Shown piece by piece: positions 10,288 through 57,939 of a stretch of DNA of 58,269 nt. The position numbers and the translations under genes are program-made. The DNA is taken from positions 1 through 58,269 of IMG/VR virus record IMGVR_UViG_3300017728_000008. One strand, written 5' to 3'. How positions within the stretch are numbered: position 1 is the first letter of the stretch; each line of letters starts with the position of its first letter. The notes under the pieces were generated by a model that was not told where the DNA came from, searched no databases, and saw only the letters and a program-made list of their open reading frames with translations. The stretch is from a virus.

Positions 10288-10310
10288 AGAAATTTTTATT
10301 AGATATCTGT

Positions 10311-10540
10311 AGTCATCGGGTCCCCCCCCGCCCTACGTGCACGACCCCGCTACCGGAACCGATTTTTTTTGTTGACCGGGGGTTGTGTTTTTCCTGCTGA
10401 GGTTCTGATTTTTTTGACTTTTTTTCTGTACCCTGTTACCCTCCTGTACCGCTCCGCATCCGCTCCGCTACCTGTATTCGTTTGACGTTACCGGTACCCC
10501 TGTTGACCCCTGTCCCCCTGTGTACCTTCCCCTGTTCCAC
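10311..10540. other. C-rich, gene-free block with quadruplex potential
   Basis: Sharp composition change: the plus strand is pyrimidine-rich with C8 at 10322-10329 and degenerate CCTGTACC/CTCCGC repeats. C tracts of 4, 4, 5 and 4 at 10497-10500, 10507-10510, 10514-10518 and 10529-10532 give four G tracts on the minus strand with loops of 6, 3 and 10 nt. A short dyad CCTGT-TCC-ACAGG follows. No credible ORF. Lies between leftward and rightward promoters; origin, regulatory or packaging roles are possible. Confidence 0.55.
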
Positions 10541-11454: not shown

Positions 11455-12459
11455 ATGAGAGATTTATCAAACAACGGAGTTCAGTTCACAACCTTAAACG
11501 ACACCACAAGACGTGGTCAAGTGAGCGGTTATCATTCTAAACCGGACCCAATTTTCAGAACCAAAGCAACCGCTCAAGACGTTAGCGGTTTAAAATCAGT
11601 TGACCGCAAGAACATTAGTTTTGATGGCACAGAGTACGAGAGCAATTTCAGAATTGGTTTCGAAGTAGAGAAAGCACGTCTTCACAGAGGAGCAGTTGAG
11701 GAGTATCCATTATTTTGTGGGTTCGAAACAGATTCTTCTTGTGGTTATGAAGCGGTTACTCACGTTTTACCTTTGGTAGCGAAGTCAATGTGGAGAACGA
11801 AAGTTTTCAACATGTTTCACCAAGCTAAGAAGATAATTGATGACGAGTACTCACCATCAGATGCTTCTTGTGGTGGTCATATGACTATCTCTGCTGAGGG
11901 TATGACCGGAGCTGAGTTGATGAGTAGAATTAGAAAATTCACACCAATCATCTTATCTATATTTCGTAAGAGGTTAACCAACAGATATTGCAATGGCAAT
12001 CCGCAGTTGTTACCAATGGGAGAGGGAGTTATGTCTTCCGGTTCATCGAAGTATGTTGTCTGTAAAGATACCGGTTTCGGTGTCGAGTTCAGAATACCAT
12101 CGAGAATTACATCTGTTAAACAGATGATAAGACGTTACGAGTTAATGTACATCTTGATGGACTTTGCAGTAAACCAACCGGATGCAACAACGAGAAAGTT
12201 TTACAATGCAGTTAAACCAATCCTGTTGAGTATGTACGAGAAAGACGAAGTGAAAGTTGAAAAGCTAATCACGTTAGCAAGAGATTTCGAGAAGTTCGTC
12301 AAGACCGGTAAAGTTGACCATACTACTGCCGGATGGCTCGAGGGGTGGTGGTCAAGTAGAAACTACTCTTTAGGTAAGTACAGAAATTACTACAAGAGAA
12401 ATTTCAGACCGGATAGCGATGTTGTGCTACAATGGAGAGGTTCAAATCGAATGTTCTAA
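11455..12459 (+). CDS. Amidoligase-family enzyme (COOH-NH2 ligase)
   Basis: 334 residues from ATG 11455. Motifs of the Amidoligase_2 family, which has a glutamine-synthetase/GCS-like fold: FRIGFEVEK (65-73, metal-binding Glu), ETDSSCGYEAVTH, CGGHMTIS (near 140-146) and GFGVEFRIPSRI (near 208-219). Such enzymes use ATP to join a carboxylate to an amine; in phages they are found with GAT-II and GGCT domains, as with the fusion at 13635. The substrate is unknown; a peptide tag, cell-wall or small-molecule product is possible. Followed by a hairpin and hammerhead ribozyme. GC is visibly higher than in the small early genes. Confidence 0.82.
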   Translation: MRDLSNNGVQFTTLNDTTRRGQVSGYHSKPDPIFRTKATAQDVSGLKSVDRKNISFDGTEYESNFRIGFEVEKARLHRGAVEEYPLFCGFETDSSCGYEAVTHVLPLVAKSMWRTKVFNMFHQAKKIIDDEYSPSDASCGGHMTISAEGMTGAELMSRIRKFTPIILSIFRKRLTNRYCNGNPQLLPMGEGVMSSGSSKYVVCKDTGFGVEFRIPSRITSVKQMIRRYELMYILMDFAVNQPDATTRKFYNAVKPILLSMYEKDEVKVEKLITLARDFEKFVKTGKVDHTTAGWLEGWWSSRNYSLGKYRNYYKRNFRPDSDVVLQWRGSNRMF

Positions 12460-12467
12460 TCCACATA

Positions 12468-12493
12468 GGGTGGTGTCTTCAAAGACACCATCC
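12468..12493 (+). repeat. Hairpin abutting ribozyme 1, containing palindrome copy 3
   Basis: GGGTGGTGTCTT-CA-AAGACACCATCC folds into a stem of about 11 bp with one G-U pair. Palindrome copy at 12473-12488. The next base (12494) is the first of ribozyme stem III, so the helices could stack. It begins 9 nt after the amidoligase stop and would cap the 3' end of the cleaved upstream mRNA. Confidence 0.85.
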
Positions 12494-12544
12494 TCTGTCG
12501 AGAGATGAGTGTCTCTCCTGATGAGTCCAAAAGGACGAAACAGA
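12494..12544 (+). ncRNA. Type III hammerhead ribozyme 1
   Basis: Stem III UCUGU (12494-12498) pairs with ACAGA (12540-12544). Cleavage is expected after C12499 (GUC). Stem I GAGAGA/UCUCUC (12500-12505, 12512-12517) with loop UGAGUG. Core CUGAUGA 12518-12524. Stem II GUCC-AAAA-GGAC (12525-12536). GAAA 12537-12540. All catalytic-core positions are intact. Lies between the amidoligase gene and the gene at 12565, so it should split the early mRNA. The 5'-OH product would begin with the stem I hairpin. Confidence 0.93.
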
Positions 12545-12564
12545 AACCTTTAAATAAAAATAAA

Positions 12565-12873
12565 ATGAGAAATTTAATTTTAAACAACACAGACATCAAA
12601 GAATACTTTGCTAACAATAGCTTTGATGAGATGCTCGTAACAACAGACTTAAAAGCATTTAACAATTTAGAAAACCACGATGACTTAGATTGGGAAGAAG
12701 TAGTTGAGTTTGGTGTGAAGAAAGTTGTAACGACTCCTTTTGCACACGAATATTCAACAATAGACTACGACAAAATTACTGCAGTATGCATTCGTTTCGA
12801 CAATGGTGTACACGATGACACAGAGATAGTAATAAATCACAACACAGAAGTTGGACCATTTAATAAAAACTAA
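12565..12873 (+). CDS. Acidic early protein, 102 aa
   Basis: Start at MRNLILNNTDIKEYFANN; the in-frame ATG at 12505 lies inside ribozyme stem I and is rejected. Acidic throughout (HDDLDWEEVVEFGVKK), one domain, no motif recognised. It is the first gene on the RNA made by cleavage at ribozyme 1; its leader is A-rich, as usual in Bacteroidota. Could be a small inhibitor-type protein; no evidence beyond size, charge and early position. Confidence 0.75.
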   Translation: MRNLILNNTDIKEYFANNSFDEMLVTTDLKAFNNLENHDDLDWEEVVEFGVKKVVTTPFAHEYSTIDYDKITAVCIRFDNGVHDDTEIVINHNTEVGPFNKN

Positions 12874-13515: not shown

Positions 13516-13538
13516 GGGTGGTGTATCTCACACCATCC
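13516..13538 (+). repeat. Variant hairpin abutting ribozyme 2
   Basis: GGGTGGTGT-ATCTC-ACACCATCC: same basal stem as the other two ribozyme hairpins (9 bp, one G-U), but the apical CTTCAAAG is replaced by ATCTC. Shows that the base of the hairpin belongs to the ribozyme cassette while the apex can vary. Confidence 0.8.
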
Positions 13539-13587
13539 TCGTATCGAGATGTGTATCTCGACTGATGATACCAAAAGGTTGAAACGG
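13539..13587 (+). ncRNA. Type III hammerhead ribozyme 2
   Basis: Stem III UCGU/ACGG (13539-13542, 13584-13587, one G-U), cleavage after A13543 (GUA). Stem I UCGAGAU/AUCUCGA (13544-13550, 13555-13561) with loop GUGU. Core CUGAUGA 13562-13568. Stem II UACC-AAAA-GGUU with a U-U at its base. GAAA 13581-13584. Stem I shares no sequence with ribozyme 1 yet pairs fully, so pairing is conserved while sequence is not. Stem III is weak, so activity may be slower. Confidence 0.85.
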
Positions 13588-13599
13588 AAACAGAGTTCG

Positions 13600-13615
13600 G
13601 TGTCTTCAAAGACAC
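13600..13615. repeat. Dispersed palindrome, copy 4 (after ribozyme 2)
   Basis: GTGTCTTCAAAGACAC flanked by CG...CG, extending the stem to 18-20 bases. Lies in the leader of the GAT-II/GGCT gene, 19 nt before its ATG, so a folded hairpin could restrict ribosome access. Confidence 0.85.
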
Positions 13616-13634
13616 CGCTCACAATTCAAACATT

Positions 13635-14741
13635 ATGTGTATAATTATTATCAAACAAAAAGGCAAAGATGTGCCAAGAGAAGTTCTCAAAACATCTTCC
13701 AAAATCAATCCTCACGGATTAGGTATTGTATGGCTCGACACGTTCGAGGTTACATATCACAAGTCAAAAGAGTTCGGTGTGTTGGATAACGACAGACCCT
13801 ACATCGCTCACTTTAGGTATGCTACAATAGGTAAAGTTTGCAAGGCAAACACACACCCATTTGTATGTGGCAGAAATACAGACGAGTTACTAATGATGAA
13901 CGGAACGATTAAAGGTTATGGTAGTCCAACAATGACAGACACCGAAGACCTTGCAATCAAGTTGGGTTCAACACCAAGGCATGGTTGGAAACAATCGCTA
14001 TCTAAATTCGATGCAAGGTTTGTTTCAATCAACAAAAGAACACGTTCGTTTCAAATCTACAACAAGAACCTGTTCACTATTCGGGATGGAGTTTGGTACT
14101 CCAAGAACAATGTACTGCAAGACAATCTTATGGCGGTCTATGGTACATTAAGAAAAGGCGGTAGCAATTACTATCGGCATCTAAAAAACGAAAAGCATTT
14201 AGGCACCGGAAAGACCACAGATAAATACCCTATGGTTTCTAATGGTATACCTTACTTGCTTGAGAAAAGAGGCGAAGGAGACAATGTGGTGGTTGATGTT
14301 TTTAAAGTCAGCGATATGGCGATGAATAAAATAGATATTCTTGAGGGACATCCGGAGTGGTACCGCAGAAAGAAAGTTGACATAAGTTTAAAAGGAAAAG
14401 TATACCCCTGTTGGATATACTTTAACGAGGGTGCAGAGACAATGTGGAACAAACAGAACCACATAGCAGACTACCAAGCGATACGAACGATTAGTTCGTT
14501 TGGCATAAAACGAACGTATGATACGTTTGAAGACCTTGAGACCACGTGGATTGATGATGTACCTACGTGTACTCAATTAGAGTTTGCAGACTTAGAGGTA
14601 GAGGAGTTCAATAAAGAGAACGAGTCCCCGGTCTGTATAGATTGTTGTCACGACTTAGAGTACGATGGTTTTTCTCATTACCATTGTAATGGTTGTGATG
14701 GTTGGTTCTCCTATAACGAAGTGATGCACTTTCAAGGATAG
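13635..14741 (+). CDS. Class-II glutamine amidotransferase / GGCT (AIG2) / zinc-ribbon fusion
   Basis: 368 residues. N-terminal Ntn-type amidotransferase: MCIIIIKQKG places the nucleophile Cys at position 2, followed by GLGIVW, AHFRYATIGKVCKANTHPF and LMMNGTIKGYG. From about 165 comes a gamma-glutamylcyclotransferase-like domain: LMAVYGTLRKGGSNYYRHL and IDILEGHPEWYRRKKVDI. The C-terminus is a four-Cys ribbon, CIDCCHDLEYDG...YHCNGCDGWF. GAT-II would release or transfer ammonia from glutamine, and GGCT would cleave gamma-glutamyl-type bonds. Paired with the amidoligase at 11455 and enclosed by ribozymes 2 and 3. The combination and the zinc ribbon suggest a dedicated conjugation/deconjugation system; the target is unknown. 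Confidence 0.85.
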   Translation: MCIIIIKQKGKDVPREVLKTSSKINPHGLGIVWLDTFEVTYHKSKEFGVLDNDRPYIAHFRYATIGKVCKANTHPFVCGRNTDELLMMNGTIKGYGSPTMTDTEDLAIKLGSTPRHGWKQSLSKFDARFVSINKRTRSFQIYNKNLFTIRDGVWYSKNNVLQDNLMAVYGTLRKGGSNYYRHLKNEKHLGTGKTTDKYPMVSNGIPYLLEKRGEGDNVVVDVFKVSDMAMNKIDILEGHPEWYRRKKVDISLKGKVYPCWIYFNEGAETMWNKQNHIADYQAIRTISSFGIKRTYDTFEDLETTWIDDVPTCTQLEFADLEVEEFNKENESPVCIDCCHDLEYDGFSHYHCNGCDGWFSYNEVMHFQG

Positions 14742-14748
14742 CCACAAA

Positions 14749-14774
14749 GGGTGGTGTCTTCAAAGACACCATCC
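14749..14774 (+). repeat. Hairpin abutting ribozyme 3, containing palindrome copy 5
   Basis: Same 26-base hairpin as at 12468 (GGGTGGTGTCTT-CA-AAGACACCATCC); palindrome copy at 14754-14769. Begins 7 nt after the stop of the GAT-II/GGCT gene and runs straight into ribozyme stem III. Confidence 0.87.
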
Positions 14775-14825
14775 TCTGTTCACGGATGTGTGTCCGTGCT
14801 GATGAAGTCAAAAGACAGAAACAGG
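14775..14825 (+). ncRNA. Type III hammerhead ribozyme 3
   Basis: Stem III UCUGU/ACAGG (14775-14779, 14821-14825, one U-G), cleavage after U14780 (GUU). Stem I CACGGA/UCCGUG (14781-14786, 14793-14798), loop UGUGUG. Core CUGAUGA 14799-14805. Stem II AGUC-AAAA-GACA with an A-A at its base. GAAA 14818-14821. The loop I (UGUGUG) and loop II (AAAA) sequences resemble those of the other two copies, which fits loop-loop contacts needed for fast cleavage. Confidence 0.9.
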
Positions 14826-14847: not shown

Positions 14848-15051
14848 ATGAAAGCAAATGAATTATTAAAATTTTTAAAAAGTGTAGAACAACAAGTACA
14901 AGGTTACGGAAAAACCTTAGAAGACGTTGAAGTAAATTTCAGAAGAACAGATGACTCTGACATTGAACCAACCGACTCTGTAGGTGTAGACTTATTTGAT
15001 GCAGAGTCAAATAAAATTGTAGAAAGTATAGTATTAATGGGTAAATATTAA
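14848..15051 (+). CDS. Acidic hypothetical protein, 67 aa
   Basis: Reads MKANELLKFLKSVEQQVQGY; net acidic with DDSDIEPTDSVGVDLFD. First gene on the RNA product downstream of ribozyme 3. Leader is AT-rich (TTAAATTAAAATTAAAATT). Family not recognised. Confidence 0.72.
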   Translation: MKANELLKFLKSVEQQVQGYGKTLEDVEVNFRRTDDSDIEPTDSVGVDLFDAESNKIVESIVLMGKY

Positions 15052-17877: not shown

Positions 17878-18385
17878 AGAGTATGTTGAAGTAAATGAGA
17901 GACTTATTTATTTCAGAAAAAACTTTCCAAACTATTCACTAACATCAGAGGTGTTAGAGAAGACAGACAAATCAATACTAATCCTTGCTACTATTTCAAA
18001 CGATGAAGGTAAAGTAATCGCAACAGGAATGGCAGAAGAAGTTAAAGGTAGCACGTTTATCAATAAGACATCTTATGTAGAGAACTGCGAGACATCTGCG
18101 TGGGGTAGAGCATTGGCTAATTTCGGTATTGGTCTTGACACGTCAGTTGCCTCAGCAGATGAAGTCAAAAACGCAGTAGCTAATCAAAGCAATGCAGGTC
18201 AGACAGAAAAACCTGCTAAAGTTTTATTAGAGTTAGGCACTACTAATTGGGTAAAGGCTAAGAAATGGATAGAAGCCAACAAAAATAAAGGCGAAGCATC
18301 TATATTGAAAACTTTAAAGATTAGGTACCAAGTGGATGACACAATAGTTAAAGAGGTCTCAGTCATTTGTAAAAAAAAGAAATAA
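17843..18385 (+). CDS. Putative single-strand annealing recombination protein
   Basis: 180 residues. YVEVNERLIYFRKNFPNYSL, ILATISNDEGKVIATGMAEE, STFINKTSYVENCETSAWGR and ALANFGIGLDTSVASADEV. The ENCETSAxGRALxxxGIGxDxSxASADEV block is a hallmark of small phage proteins next to exonuclease and SSB genes, which I take as ERF/Rad52-superfamily-like annealing proteins. The C-terminus is basic. It would pair complementary strands during replication or recombination. The family assignment is from memory and context. Confidence 0.68.
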   Translation: MTKLKTVNIKGKEYVEVNERLIYFRKNFPNYSLTSEVLEKTDKSILILATISNDEGKVIATGMAEEVKGSTFINKTSYVENCETSAWGRALANFGIGLDTSVASADEVKNAVANQSNAGQTEKPAKVLLELGTTNWVKAKKWIEANKNKGEASILKTLKIRYQVDDTIVKEVSVICKKKK

Positions 18386-53279: not shown

Positions 53280-55715
53280 TTATTTAGGTGAAAATTCTGC
53301 TAAGTCAAACCCGTCTAAACTATCCTCGTTGGATTCAAATCTTTGAGGAGGTAAGTTGTTTTTACGTTGGTTTATAAGTTTAGATTGTTGGGTATTCTGT
53401 TGGTCTATGCGTGAAGACTTTGCGTCTTCTCTTTGTGACTCTCTTGATTTTAAAGCCTCTTCAGAAATATTTCTTAATTGCTGATTATAATTAAATTCTT
53501 CAGCCATTAATTGTGATTTCAATTGTGCTTCATTATTCATTTTTTCAATCTCAAAAGCTATCTCTGCTTGTTTAAGTTGCATCTTGCCTTGCATTTCTTG
53601 TTGTTGTTTTTGCATAGCAACTTGTGCAGCCATTTGTTGAGACTTCATATTTTGTTGAGCGACCATTGCTTGTTTTTGCATTTCCAATTGGTCTTCTCTT
53701 TCTTGCTTTTGTTTACGTTTAAGTTTCAATAACTGATTAGCAAGTTTAATATTTTTAAGTTCTCTAATATATATAGCATCTTCTAAGTTTATATCTTGTT
53801 TAGAAAGAGCCATTTGAATGTTTTGCTCAAGTTTTGCTTTTGCTTCTTCATCCGGTGAGACTTCAATAAATATTCCAAAATCATATATATATAAATCTTT
53901 TATTTGGTCAAGAATAGATACATTATATTTTCCTATTTTGTTTGCAAAATCATCTGCAAAATCAGCGTACTCTAAAATGTCTGCCACCCTATAAGTTAAT
54001 GCTTCTCCTAAAGAGCGATATATATAAAGACTTCCGTCAAGAATATGACGTGTAGCTACATTAGAGTTTAATGCTGCAAGTTTTTGTAAACCGACCAACG
54101 AATTAGGGTCAGGTATACTTGCGTCTCTTGCTTCATTTAAACCTGTAACAGTTCTAATCATATTCAAATAATGATTATAATTAGTAAGAAGCATTTGAGT
54201 TTTACTTGCACCTGAACTTGATTGTAGTTCTTTAATAGGAACTTTACCTTGATTATATTCTCCGTCTTGCGTATAGCTTCTACCTATAACACTACCTGTT
54301 TGGAAATACAACCTAAGAGCATCTTCCGGATTATAAGCATTACCTGTGCCAAGGTCAACTTCGTTTAAGCCGTCAGCATCTATATATACTCCATCAGGAA
54401 CTACTCTTGATATTACTTGTTGTAGTTTTAAATGAGTCATTTGAATTAAATCCGCAAAAGGTATCATTCTGCGAACCAACGATTCTAATACACCTTTATA
54501 CATACGAGGTGCAACCGCTATATAATTTGGTAAAGCATGTTGAGAAGCCGATTTAGGTCTAACCATATTATGAGCTAATTCCCATTTTAATAGAATATTA
54601 GTACCCATTACCATTACACCATCGTACCAAACATCAATAGTTTTTTCAAACTTTTCAAAGTTACCCTCTTCCATAACTTCAGTTGGAGGATTAAATTGGT
54701 CATCTTTTTCTATTACCTTATTGCCTCCTGTTGCCATAATTTTTTTCTTATAAACCATCTTCTGAGTGGTCTTATAATTAAAATACATTAAGGTCACAGT
54801 ATCTCTATAAAAAACATCGTTCTCATAAAATTGTGCAACATTATAGTAGTCATACCAAGACTGACTGTATTTTGAAATTTCTTCTAAGTCTGACGTAGTA
54901 AGTGTGGGGTCGATTTTTATAAGCTCTGTAATCGGTAGGGTTTTCACTTCTCCCCAATAAAAGCAATCTTTAAAGTGTGGGTCTTCCGTATAGCTATAAA
55001 CTATATTTGCAGGGTCCACATATGAAATTTTTACACCTGAACCTTTTAAAAACTCGTGTTTAGCAACACCTATTCCTAAAACAGTTAAATCGTAATCAAA
55101 TCTTTTTCGTAAATCAACATAATGGTTTTCATCAAAAATAGTATTGATAGCTTCTTCTTCTGCTATCTCAATAGATGGTTTGTAATTTAATTGCATATAC
55201 AAAGAAAGCTCTTCGTCTGACTCAGGTAGTTCACCTTTATCTACAACAAAAGGGTCATAGTTGCCCTTTTTTTCTATAATTTCTAATACCGGTTTTGCAG
55301 CCATTTGCCCTTCTATCATATCTTGATATTTAGAACGCTTGGCTTGAGACATAGCATCCTGTGCATATGCCTTAACTCTAAAAAGTCTATCTGACATACC
55401 GTTTACTACAATATCTACAAACTTAGGAATAATAGGAACCGGAGTCCAATCTAAATTAAGATAAGATAAATCTCCATCAATGGCTAATTCATTCTTGTAT
55501 TTTTTAATTGATTGTTCTCCCCTTGCATATAATTTCAACCTATGGAACTCTCTCCATTGGTCATAAAATCTGCATCCGTTTCCATCTTTACGGAACCACT
55601 CATATTGAATAGCCTGTCCAATCATCAATCCATACTCATCAGTTGCTTTTTCTGCATCTGAAACAAATTGACTTGGAAACCCCGCAGATGAAATATTTAT
55701 TTTTACGTCTTTCAT
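53280..55715 (-). CDS. Portal protein
   Basis: 811 residues, in the size range of crAss-like portals. PVPIIPKFVDIVVNGMSDRL and FRVKAYAQDAMSQAKRSKYQ near residues 93-135, EEEAINTIFDENHYVDLRKR, VRRMIPFADLIQMTHLKLQQ, then a Gln/Lys-rich C-terminal coiled coil (QKQAMVAQQNMKSQQMAAQV). It forms the dodecameric ring through which DNA is packed. Overlaps the terminase gene by 4 nt. Confidence 0.85.
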   Translation of the reverse strand: MKDVKINISSAGFPSQFVSDAEKATDEYGLMIGQAIQYEWFRKDGNGCRFYDQWREFHRLKLYARGEQSIKKYKNELAIDGDLSYLNLDWTPVPIIPKFVDIVVNGMSDRLFRVKAYAQDAMSQAKRSKYQDMIEGQMAAKPVLEIIEKKGNYDPFVVDKGELPESDEELSLYMQLNYKPSIEIAEEEAINTIFDENHYVDLRKRFDYDLTVLGIGVAKHEFLKGSGVKISYVDPANIVYSYTEDPHFKDCFYWGEVKTLPITELIKIDPTLTTSDLEEISKYSQSWYDYYNVAQFYENDVFYRDTVTLMYFNYKTTQKMVYKKKIMATGGNKVIEKDDQFNPPTEVMEEGNFEKFEKTIDVWYDGVMVMGTNILLKWELAHNMVRPKSASQHALPNYIAVAPRMYKGVLESLVRRMIPFADLIQMTHLKLQQVISRVVPDGVYIDADGLNEVDLGTGNAYNPEDALRLYFQTGSVIGRSYTQDGEYNQGKVPIKELQSSSGASKTQMLLTNYNHYLNMIRTVTGLNEARDASIPDPNSLVGLQKLAALNSNVATRHILDGSLYIYRSLGEALTYRVADILEYADFADDFANKIGKYNVSILDQIKDLYIYDFGIFIEVSPDEEAKAKLEQNIQMALSKQDINLEDAIYIRELKNIKLANQLLKLKRKQKQEREDQLEMQKQAMVAQQNMKSQQMAAQVAMQKQQQEMQGKMQLKQAEIAFEIEKMNNEAQLKSQLMAEEFNYNQQLRNISEEALKSRESQREDAKSSRIDQQNTQQSKLINQRKNNLPPQRFESNEDSLDGFDLAEFSPK

Positions 55716-57139
55716 CTAATTATTTGACTTATATTGCCGGTATTAGTATACCTTGCAAAGTTAATCTTTATTTTTGACTCTTTTTGTTCAGGTTGATATA
55801 GATGTTTTTGACAAGCCATTGCTGCTAATCCGGAACTAATTGATGCATCATACTTAGTTCTATTACTTATATCAAATCTCGCCCAATCTTCTAAGGTACG
55901 ATTAAAGCTAATATTCCCCATATCTCCATTTTCTTGTAGTCCCACATATTTTTCAATATAAGACTCAATAGCGGCAGCGTGTGCTTGTTTAACATCTTCG
56001 CTTGAGTTTGGTATCCCTCCTAATTCTTTTTCTGTCTTAGATAGTTTTATAAATTTTTTATCAGGACGATTCATACATAAACCTCTATATCCTCTATTTT
56101 TAAAATGATATAATAATCTTGGTTTGTTATTTTCAATTAATATTGGCATACCATAAAACACACATGCCATTAAAACATCTTCAAAAAATATTTCAGCAGT
56201 TTGAGGTCTTGCAATATATTCTAAGAAAAATTCATTACTTGGTGCTTCCTCCATACTAAACTTAGTAAGACCGTGTAAAGAACCGTTTGAACCTACTCCT
56301 CCAACAGTTCCGCTTATGTCATAAGAGTCACAACCGAATGCACCAATATGTTCGTTTCCGGGATATTTAATTCCATTTTTACTTAAAATGTTATTTTGCA
56401 AATTTTTATTTGGAACCCAAGTTATAAAAAACCTACCTCTATTGTCAGGTGAGAATATTACTTTACCATCTTTAATTCCATCCACCCAAGAAAATGTACC
56501 TCTACTTACGTGGTGGTCGGTTATCATTGCATCATTGTAATCTATTTGTTGATAGATTTTAGTTAAATTAAATAAAGACTGTTTACTCTCATCTCTAAAT
56601 GCATGAGATTCAGTTCTTGGAAATTGTCTGTAATATTCGTTCAATGCATCAGGGTCTTTTTTTAAAGAATCTACTTCATTCTCCCAATAATTAATCGCAC
56701 CTACTTTGATTAATTCATTATCTATTCCTAATACAGGTTTTTTTGTTTCAAAAACCGGATATCCATAGCGGTCAATAAATCCTTCCATATTCCATTCCAT
56801 TGGGATGAAAAGTGAATACATACCACTTTTAGTTTGACCATTAGCGTTTCTTGTTCTTACATCTGAATCATAGAATAATTGTTTAAAATTATTACCACCT
56901 TTATTTAAAGCATTAGAAGTAGAACCCATCATACACTTTCCAATTATCTTACTACCTAATCTTAAACACGTTTTAGTAACTCTCCAATTATTTAAAATAT
57001 TATTAGGCTTTAACCACTTGCCACTTTCATCGTGCACTAACAATAAAAGTTTTTCCCCATCATAAGAGTTGTCATCAGTATTTTTCCAATCTATAGTTGT
57101 GTCCAACCCTTCTATTTCATCGTCATCAAGATTGTACAT
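55712..57139 (-). CDS. Large terminase, C-terminal part (ATPase motif II and nuclease)
   Basis: 475 residues opening MYNLDDDEIEGLDTTIDWKN. Walker B LLLLVHDESGKW (Asp-Glu at about 37-38), then the nuclease domain with HIGAFGCDSYDISGTVGG (candidate catalytic Asp in CDSYD) and NKPRLLYHFKNRGYRGLCMN. Its frame joins the N-terminal part by a -1 shift in an A run at about 57145-57152; with it the protein is about 742 residues. It could also start at its own ATG, but then it would lack the Walker A region. Confidence 0.85.
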   Translation of the reverse strand: MYNLDDDEIEGLDTTIDWKNTDDNSYDGEKLLLLVHDESGKWLKPNNILNNWRVTKTCLRLGSKIIGKCMMGSTSNALNKGGNNFKQLFYDSDVRTRNANGQTKSGMYSLFIPMEWNMEGFIDRYGYPVFETKKPVLGIDNELIKVGAINYWENEVDSLKKDPDALNEYYRQFPRTESHAFRDESKQSLFNLTKIYQQIDYNDAMITDHHVSRGTFSWVDGIKDGKVIFSPDNRGRFFITWVPNKNLQNNILSKNGIKYPGNEHIGAFGCDSYDISGTVGGVGSNGSLHGLTKFSMEEAPSNEFFLEYIARPQTAEIFFEDVLMACVFYGMPILIENNKPRLLYHFKNRGYRGLCMNRPDKKFIKLSKTEKELGGIPNSSEDVKQAHAAAIESYIEKYVGLQENGDMGNISFNRTLEDWARFDISNRTKYDASISSGLAAMACQKHLYQPEQKESKIKINFARYTNTGNISQIIR

Positions 57140-57939
57140 ATTTTTTTTGTAATCTTAGACGCAGGAACTCTGTATGCTAATTCAGTTTTAGGCTTATCCA
57201 TTCCATCCATAATAGGTCTAAAGAAAAATGGCAACCTACTATTTATAGGGACAACTTTGTCGGTAAACATTTTTTTAGCATCAGACCCTGTTTTAGACAA
57301 TATACCCACACGTGAATCTTTGACAAGAGTAGCAGTATTAACACACTCAGAAGAAGACATAAAAGAAAAACCTGAACGTCTTATTTTTAAATATATCATT
57401 CCAAAACTTCGATAGTCTGCTTTACAAGCCTCCCAAAAAAGATATAGTATTCTATTAGCTTCTCTATAGTCCGGATATCCTACGTCAATTTGTGTCCATT
57501 GCAAATACATATAGTGAGCACCTGTAATGTATGTGGGTTTTCCATTATTTTTAAACCAATATCCATACTCTCTATAATCAAATTCTTTTTCAATGTAATC
57601 TACCCATGAGTTTTTAAAAGCCTTGGGCATTTCATTCCATTGAAATATAGAGTTTATTTTAGACAAACTTTTAGGTATTGATTTTCTTTCCCAATATTGT
57701 TTGTCTTTATTGTCGTGTCTTTGAAGACACGTGTTTGGGGGTTTGGGTAAAGCTATGATTAATCCATTTATAGAGATGATATCTTGAATCTGACCTGATT
57801 TTGAAATGACTATAACATCATATTTTTCGTTATAACCATATAACCAAGATTTATTTCTGTTTTTAGTTGAAATAACATTCTTAGGTATATAATCTTTAAG
57901 TGATTTATACAATTCGTTATTTAGAGTTTCTTTCTGCAA
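57112..57939 (-). CDS. Large terminase, N-terminal part (ATPase)
   Basis: 275 residues. YWFKNNGKPTYITGAHYMYL and YPDYREANRILYLFWEACKA, then a degenerate Walker A, LKIRRSGFSFMSSSECVN, and VGILSKTGSDAKKMFTDKVV, the TerL layout of crAss-like and related phages. After ASKITKK the zero frame adds nine unrelated residues (ICTILMTMK) and stops, while the -1 frame continues as the conserved terminase. Contains palindrome copy 11 at 57715-57730 (T-C-L-Q-R-H). Overlaps the small-terminase gene. Confidence 0.85.
   Translation of the reverse strand: MQKETLNNELYKSLKDYIPKNVISTKNRNKSWLYGYNEKYDVIVISKSGQIQDIISINGLIIALPKPPNTCLQRHDNKDKQYWERKSIPKSLSKINSIFQWNEMPKAFKNSWVDYIEKEFDYREYGYWFKNNGKPTYITGAHYMYLQWTQIDVGYPDYREANRILYLFWEACKADYRSFGMIYLKIRRSGFSFMSSSECVNTATLVKDSRVGILSKTGSDAKKMFTDKVVPINSRLPFFFRPIMDGMDKPKTELAYRVPASKITKKICTILMTMK
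57715..57730. repeat. Dispersed palindrome, copy 11 (in TerL CDS, codon phase 3)
   Basis: GTGTCTTTGAAGACAC on plus; read on minus as T-C-L-Q-R-H near residue 72, in the N-terminal part before the ATPase motifs. Confidence 0.85.

Follow-up and report, generated by a model that had tools for sequence, protein, structure and literature searches.

Clustered hammerhead ribozymes that flank phage and prophage genes have been described by Perreault 2011 (PMC3088659), where processing of polycistronic RNAs into single-gene or operon-length mRNAs was proposed as their role. According to the text of that work, such clusters cleave polycistronic RNAs of ~2 kb in vitro, one triple array also does so in E. 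coli, and in a halovirus only 13 nt separate the hammerhead from a start codon, with a mapped 5′ end at most 3 nt away. The same text reports an active variant whose stem II begins with a U10.1-U11.1 mismatch, so that the U·U mismatch, which we had considered as a possible novelty, was already reported in 2011; it also states that a hit with mispaired 10.1-11.1 is normally rejected unless activity has been measured (PMC3088659). The supplement lists the hammerhead of Pseudomonas phage PaP3 among the active variants. In PaP3 and related bruynogheviruses, our own scan revealed one type III hammerhead per phage, immediately before an early-block gene, with loop I UGUGUG or UGCGUG and, as in the second hammerhead described below, U10.1·U11.1 and A17. 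The purpose of phage hammerheads is a long-standing open question.

The locus analyzed here is a 58,269-base IMG/VR virus record, referred to in its entirety as the window, which carries three hammerheads (HHR1, HHR2 and HHR3) together with the features collected in Table 1. Its large terminase subunit shares 74% identity with that of MW202828.1 and 50% with those of Flavobacterium elemoviruses, and we assign the carrier to a flavobacterial podovirus-like phage. GroEL, the portal protein and large structural genes are encoded on the minus strand, and all three hammerheads reside in a plus-strand block whose later members include exonuclease, primase-like and helicase genes; judging from its gene content, this rightward block is probably expressed early in infection. 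As in the arrays of Perreault 2011, several hammerheads lie between genes of one phage transcript, and this inter-gene ribozyme architecture is, going by the text of that work, already published (PMC3088659). The window differs from the arrays presented there in belonging to a flavobacterial clade, in mixing C17/G-C, A17/U·U and U17/A·A states within one array, and in a hairpin that immediately precedes the ribozyme and is not mentioned in that text. A related phage group with a cultured host, the Flavobacterium phages vB_FspP_elemo (Elemovirus), likewise possesses a type III hammerhead immediately ahead of a gene (18098-18152 in locus L070), in a region conserved in 68 records, but there it is a single copy with a low score (39 bits) and A17 combined with G-C.

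Table 1. Features of the 58,269-base window and their positions
Feature	Coordinates	Strand	Description
C-rich stretch	10310-10540		CCCCCCCCGCCC; recurring CCGCT/CCTGT words
334-aa gene	11455-12459	+	upstream of HHR1; possible glutamine-synthetase-like amidoligase
Hairpin	12468-12493	+	GGGTGGTGTCTTCAAAGACACCATCC; abuts HHR1 on its 5′ side, no gap
HHR1	12494-12544	+	type III hammerhead; C17; G10.1-C11.1; predicted cut 12499^12500
HHR1 stem III	12494-12498/12540-12544	+	UCUGU/ACAGA; 5 bp
HHR1 stem I	12500-12505/12512-12517	+	GAGAGA/UCUCUC; 6-7 bp; loop UGAGUG
HHR1 stem II	12525-12528/12533-12536	+	GUCC/GGAC; 4 bp; loop AAAA
HHR1 core	12518-12524; 12537-12539	+	CUGAUGA; GAA
ATG	12505-12507	+	where stem I meets loop I; shares the frame of the next gene; probably a false start
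102-aa gene	12565-12873	+	after HHR1; unknown; A-rich leader ahead of ATG
Hairpin	13516-13538	+	GGGTGGTGTATCTCACACCATCC; directly 5′ of HHR2
HHR2	13539-13587	+	type III hammerhead variant; A17 (13543); U10.1·U11.1 mismatch (13569/13580); predicted cut 13543^13544
Palindrome hairpin	13599-13616	+	GGTGTCTTCAAAGACACC; between HHR2 and next start codon
Amidotransferase/cyclotransferase gene	13635-14741	+	between HHR2 and HHR3; glutamine amidotransferase-like N-part, gamma-glutamyl cyclotransferase (GGACT) domain
Hairpin	14749-14774	+	GGGTGGTGTCTTCAAAGACACCATCC; directly 5′ of HHR3
HHR3	14775-14825	+	type III hammerhead variant; U17 (14780); A10.1·A11.1 mismatch (14806/14817); predicted cut 14780^14781
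67-aa gene	14848-15051	+	after HHR3; unknown
Dispersed palindrome	10562, 11425, 12473, 13600, 14754, 15640, 19150, 23537, 31867, 50540, 57715		GTGTCTTYRAAGACAC
Split terminase large subunit	55712-57939	-	two overlapping ORFs

On sequence grounds, HHR1 is a genuine type III hammerhead, followed in the window by two more. Its RNA, UCUGU-C-GAGAGA-UGAGUG-UCUCUC-CUGAUGA-GUCC-AAAA-GGAC-GAA-ACAGA, contains CUGANGA, GAA, the A15.1-U16.1 pair and H at position 17, and forms three stems of which I and II are capped by loops and III is the open one, which defines type III; self-cleavage is predicted after position 17, that is, after C12499. The original prediction had placed a hammerhead numbered 1, with a canonical core, fully paired stems I and II and a 5-bp stem III, at exactly this position. 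Each of these points proved correct, the stems showing covariation in relatives and the number being apt in view of the two further hammerheads downstream. It had also warned that an in-frame ATG in stem I would be mistaken for a gene start, and the mechanical ORF 12505-12873 indeed begins at that ATG; ATG 12565 is the likelier start of the 102-aa gene, and an in-frame ATG falls within the motif in 47 of 299 distinct relatives among the matches listed.

The Infernal search that had been proposed as a check gave a divided answer. Using cmscan, the type III model RF00008 (Hammerhead_3) aligned to HHR1 over its full length, with the same topology and core (E 2.1e-7), but the score of 47.6 bits lies formally below the Rfam gathering score of 48.5, by 0.9 bits, so that a search at this threshold lists nothing in the window. 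The gathering score is a search cut-off and no structural feature. Considering the E-value and the comparative data, the sub-threshold score is a cut-off artefact, and a score below threshold, which had been named beforehand as evidence against the ribozyme, is uninformative here. Our own structural descriptor retrieved three motifs from the real window and one match in total from 300 dinucleotide shuffles. For HHR1 and HHR2, the lowest-energy fold, computed with tertiary contacts ignored, has a CUG/CAG pairing in place of stem III. Loop I UGNGUR and loop II NAAA are strongly conserved in the relatives, a conservation at the sequence level that bears on the loop I-loop II tertiary contact.

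HHR2 and HHR3 share the core of HHR1 and possess loop I UGUGUR and loop II AAAA. All core letters, stems I and III and H17 are present in both, and stem I differs in sequence among the three hammerheads while being fully paired in each. Where the canonical consensus has a Watson-Crick 10.1-11.1 pair, HHR2 carries U·U and HHR3 carries A·A; Rfam reports neither at E≤1, and with the G10.1-C11.1 pair missing, both could be slow or dead. Covariance model R1, built from 41 sequences including HHR1 and HHR2 and excluding HHR3, scored HHR2 (a training sequence) at 66.9 bits and HHR3 (not a training sequence) at 68.6 bits.

To place these motifs among relatives, we assembled a locus set of 633 kb, consisting of 54 loci around the cyclotransferase gene, four around the 334-aa gene, and the window. 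It contained 91 motifs, of which 79 are distinct; every one lies on the same strand as the genes, and ten shuffled versions yielded 0, 0, 0, 0, 0, 0, 0, 0, 0 and 1 motifs. Searching whole records with R1 revealed one to four copies in 33 of 43; many relatives carry a single copy, and in many others two or more flank the same gene. In the R1 alignment 91.8% of cells are paired, with 232 double-changed cells (71.5 when shuffled), a covariation score of 0.866 (0.222 when shuffled) and changes on both sides in 14 of 16 stem pairs; since the descriptor that chose the sequences demands pairing, the evidence lies in the variety of pair types and not in the paired percentage. No hammerhead in 13 related loci passed the Rfam gathering score, and in five of these loci Rfam gave 36-47 bits for G-C members and 29 for one U·U member, with no A·A member listed. 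The Rfam cut-off and the customary rejection of mispaired 10.1-11.1 conceal this hammerhead set from annotation. Mostly A17/U·U hammerheads were also observed in two viral contigs (L401 and L309), where they share an operon with genes for a MoxR-like AAA ATPase and a DUF2201 metallopeptidase-like protein.

The identity of base 17 proved to be coupled to that of 10.1/11.1. In the locus set, whose choice did not depend on these positions, C17 occurs with G-C in 43 motifs and with A·A in 2, A17 with U·U in 21 and with G-C in 7, and U17 with A·A in 5 and with U·U in 1. The sample was enlarged by three pattern scans of viral contigs in which 10.1/11.1 was fixed and position 17 left free, giving at least 299 distinct motifs that cover only the fixed 10.1/11.1 combinations. 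Among the 299 listed, C17 is accompanied by G-C (124), U·U (4), A·A (3) or U/C (3), A17 by U·U (109), G-C (27) or others (3), and U17 by U·U (13), A·A (11) or G-C (2). At least three U·U motifs came from a scan of bacterial genomes, with A17 in all those listed. The coupled states are C17 with G-C, A17 with U·U, and U17 with U·U or A·A. The dependence is asymmetric: where U·U is present, A or U at position 17 is strongly implied, while A17 tolerates G-C.

Because relatedness inflates such counts, two kinship controls were applied. Pairs of nearest neighbours, defined by flanking DNA, showed joint changes in 10 cases, a change only at 17 in 10, only at 10.1/11.1 in 9 and neither in 83 (Fisher p 1.3e-4). 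With one state counted per component (65 connected components), the G-C/U·U/A·A numbers were 32/2/1 for C, 10/32/0 for A and 2/8/4 for U (p 4e-12). A phylogenetic artefact was rejected as the source of the coupling: the signal was reduced, yet it persisted under both controls. In weighted mutual information (effective number ~15), 17-11.1 and 17-10.1 rank right after the 14 helix pairs and are the top non-helix pairs. C17 was found in 43 of 64 motifs after the 334-aa gene family versus 6 of 33 after the amidotransferase/cyclotransferase gene (p 5e-6, among the matches listed), a site preference to which shared descent contributes and which fits a model of different states at different boundaries.

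Watson-Crick pairing of base 17 with 10.1 suits most of these cases (C-G, A-U and U-A), not A17/G-C or U17/U·U, and is absent from the known fold. G12 adjoins the 10.1-11.1 pair. One crystal structure of a hammerhead shows G12 stacked against the base on the 5′ side of the scissile phosphate (PMC11300833). Base 17, G12 and 10.1-11.1 would accordingly form one stack, a possible structural basis for the coupling. It is conceivable, if rather doubtful, that base 17 and the 10.1·11.1 layer under G12·A9 are co-selected and that phages place particular states at particular boundaries, giving a set of ribozymes with unequal processing rates. For a ribozyme that ranks among the best studied, the coupling yields a simple prediction of how structure relates to function. 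Like the A·A state, the coupling appears to be new: no report of either was found in the open-access literature, subscription papers lying outside this scope, so novelty is provisional. What the set contributes is the A·A variant, the 17-10.1/11.1 rule and a cassette of hairpin and ribozyme.

All three hammerheads of the window sit between a stop codon and the next start codon, and this position is general: for the 299 distinct flanked motifs among the matches listed, the next ATG lies at a median of 22 nt 3′ of the motif and the nearest upstream stop at a median of 34 nt 5′ of it. The hairpins on the 5′ side have stems of 11-12 bp before HHR1 and HHR3 and of 9 bp before HHR2. A perfect stem of at least 7 bp whose end is no more than 8 nt from stem III accompanies 170 of 284 motifs listed, compared with 59 of 851 positions drawn at random from these loci; among the matches listed, the hairpin abuts stem III in 136 of 178 cases, and the 178 hairpins include 146 different sequences. 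We read the order hairpin, ribozyme, leader, gene as a cassette. The hairpins are not intrinsic terminators, as a T-run follows none of the 178 listed. Viral contigs scanned for the exact cassette, a hairpin end joined to CTGATGA, gave 67 matches, none of which came through the structural filter. The core of many hairpins adjoining hammerheads is the dispersed palindrome GTGTCTTYRAAGACAC, present in 11 copies within and between genes of the window and found 3-16 times each in 13 of the 19 further records examined, the reversed control giving 0. The palindrome is possibly a DNA- or RNA-binding site, and its occurrence elsewhere, including in coding sequence, means that the role of the hairpin may differ from that of an mRNA-end structure.

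The best explanation for these arrangements, and one we hold to be likely, is co-transcriptional self-cleavage that divides a polycistronic early mRNA into units. Each hammerhead would fold in the nascent transcript and cut itself after nucleotide 17. The upstream mRNA would then end in a 2′,3′-cyclic phosphate a few nucleotides past a stable hairpin, which should slow 3′-5′ exonucleases, and the downstream mRNA would begin with a 5′-OH and the folded remainder of the ribozyme shortly ahead of its start codon. Four units would result: one up to the 334-aa gene, one of four small genes, the amidotransferase/cyclotransferase gene, and the later small genes; the differing base-17/10.1-11.1 states may set the cleavage rates of the individual members. 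This likely function, the cutting of mRNA into units with defined ends, has previously been put forward in general terms.

Cleavage might instead serve mainly for translational control, removing upstream RNA that hides or weakens the start region of the next gene. The distance of ~22 nt seen throughout between motif and start codon would suit this role, as would three of four bruynogheviruses, PaP4, phiIBB-PAA2 and 1KM, in which the A17/U·U state is conserved and the annotated start codon of the adjacent gene forms part of the 3′ strand of stem III (L627 285-287, L628 385-387 and L629 387-389, respectively), just after which it is found in PaP3; there, to judge from the sequences, self-cleavage could free the start codon and switch on translation. 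In the window, however, the start codon lies 20 nt past the motif in unstructured A-rich RNA, so nothing is hidden, and the hairpin on the 5′ side is left unexplained; we consider translational control an unlikely main purpose.

That the motifs are kept merely as structured RNA, for instance for stability or for binding a regulator, with HHR2 and HHR3 in particular being dead, would agree with the loss of the most conserved stem II pair from these two. Position 17 is never G in the 299 motifs listed, even though the descriptor left it free, which fits selection for cleavage, and the supplementary listing of PaP3, U·U and A17 by our scan, among active variants (PMC3088659) points the same way; we regard this possibility as quite improbable. 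Slightly more improbable still is that successive hammerheads free internal fragments, of 1,044 nt for HHR1-HHR2 and 1,237 nt for HHR2-HHR3, which an RtcB-type ligase then closes into circular mRNAs. In many relatives a single gene is flanked by two or more hammerheads, and the chemistry of 5′-OH and 2′,3′-cyclic phosphate ends suits RtcB, but many other relatives have a single copy, and circles or splicing were sought in similar arrays and, as far as the text of that study reports, not found (PMC3088659). Chance resemblance in an AT-rich genome, which the score under the gathering cut-off could be taken to favour, is refuted by the shuffles, the covariation and the conserved site and strand.

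On the question of what phage hammerheads are for, this clade offers arrays at conserved positions, the hairpin-ribozyme cassette and cultured relatives (Flavobacterium elemoviruses and the Pseudomonas PaP3 group) for direct mapping of 5′-OH ends.

The 334-aa protein encoded upstream of HHR1 has no Pfam or PHROG match. Its assignment to Amidoligase_2 by sequence was rejected, with no Pfam match and a non-significant hhalign comparison to the PaP3 amidoligase. It contains the conserved motifs IGFEVEK, DSSCGYEA, CGGH and EFR, and a fold search with its weak AlphaFold model (pLDDT 63) retrieved glutamine synthetases, YbdK and PafA (best E 4e-4), which suggests a glutamine-synthetase-like amidoligase beside the amidotransferase/cyclotransferase gene. 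Two further features of the window were observed. The two overlapping ORFs of the terminase large subunit each correspond to one half of a single PHROG, possibly through a frameshift, a sequencing error or an insertion. The odd C-rich stretch immediately ahead of the rightward gene block is a possible origin or promoter region.
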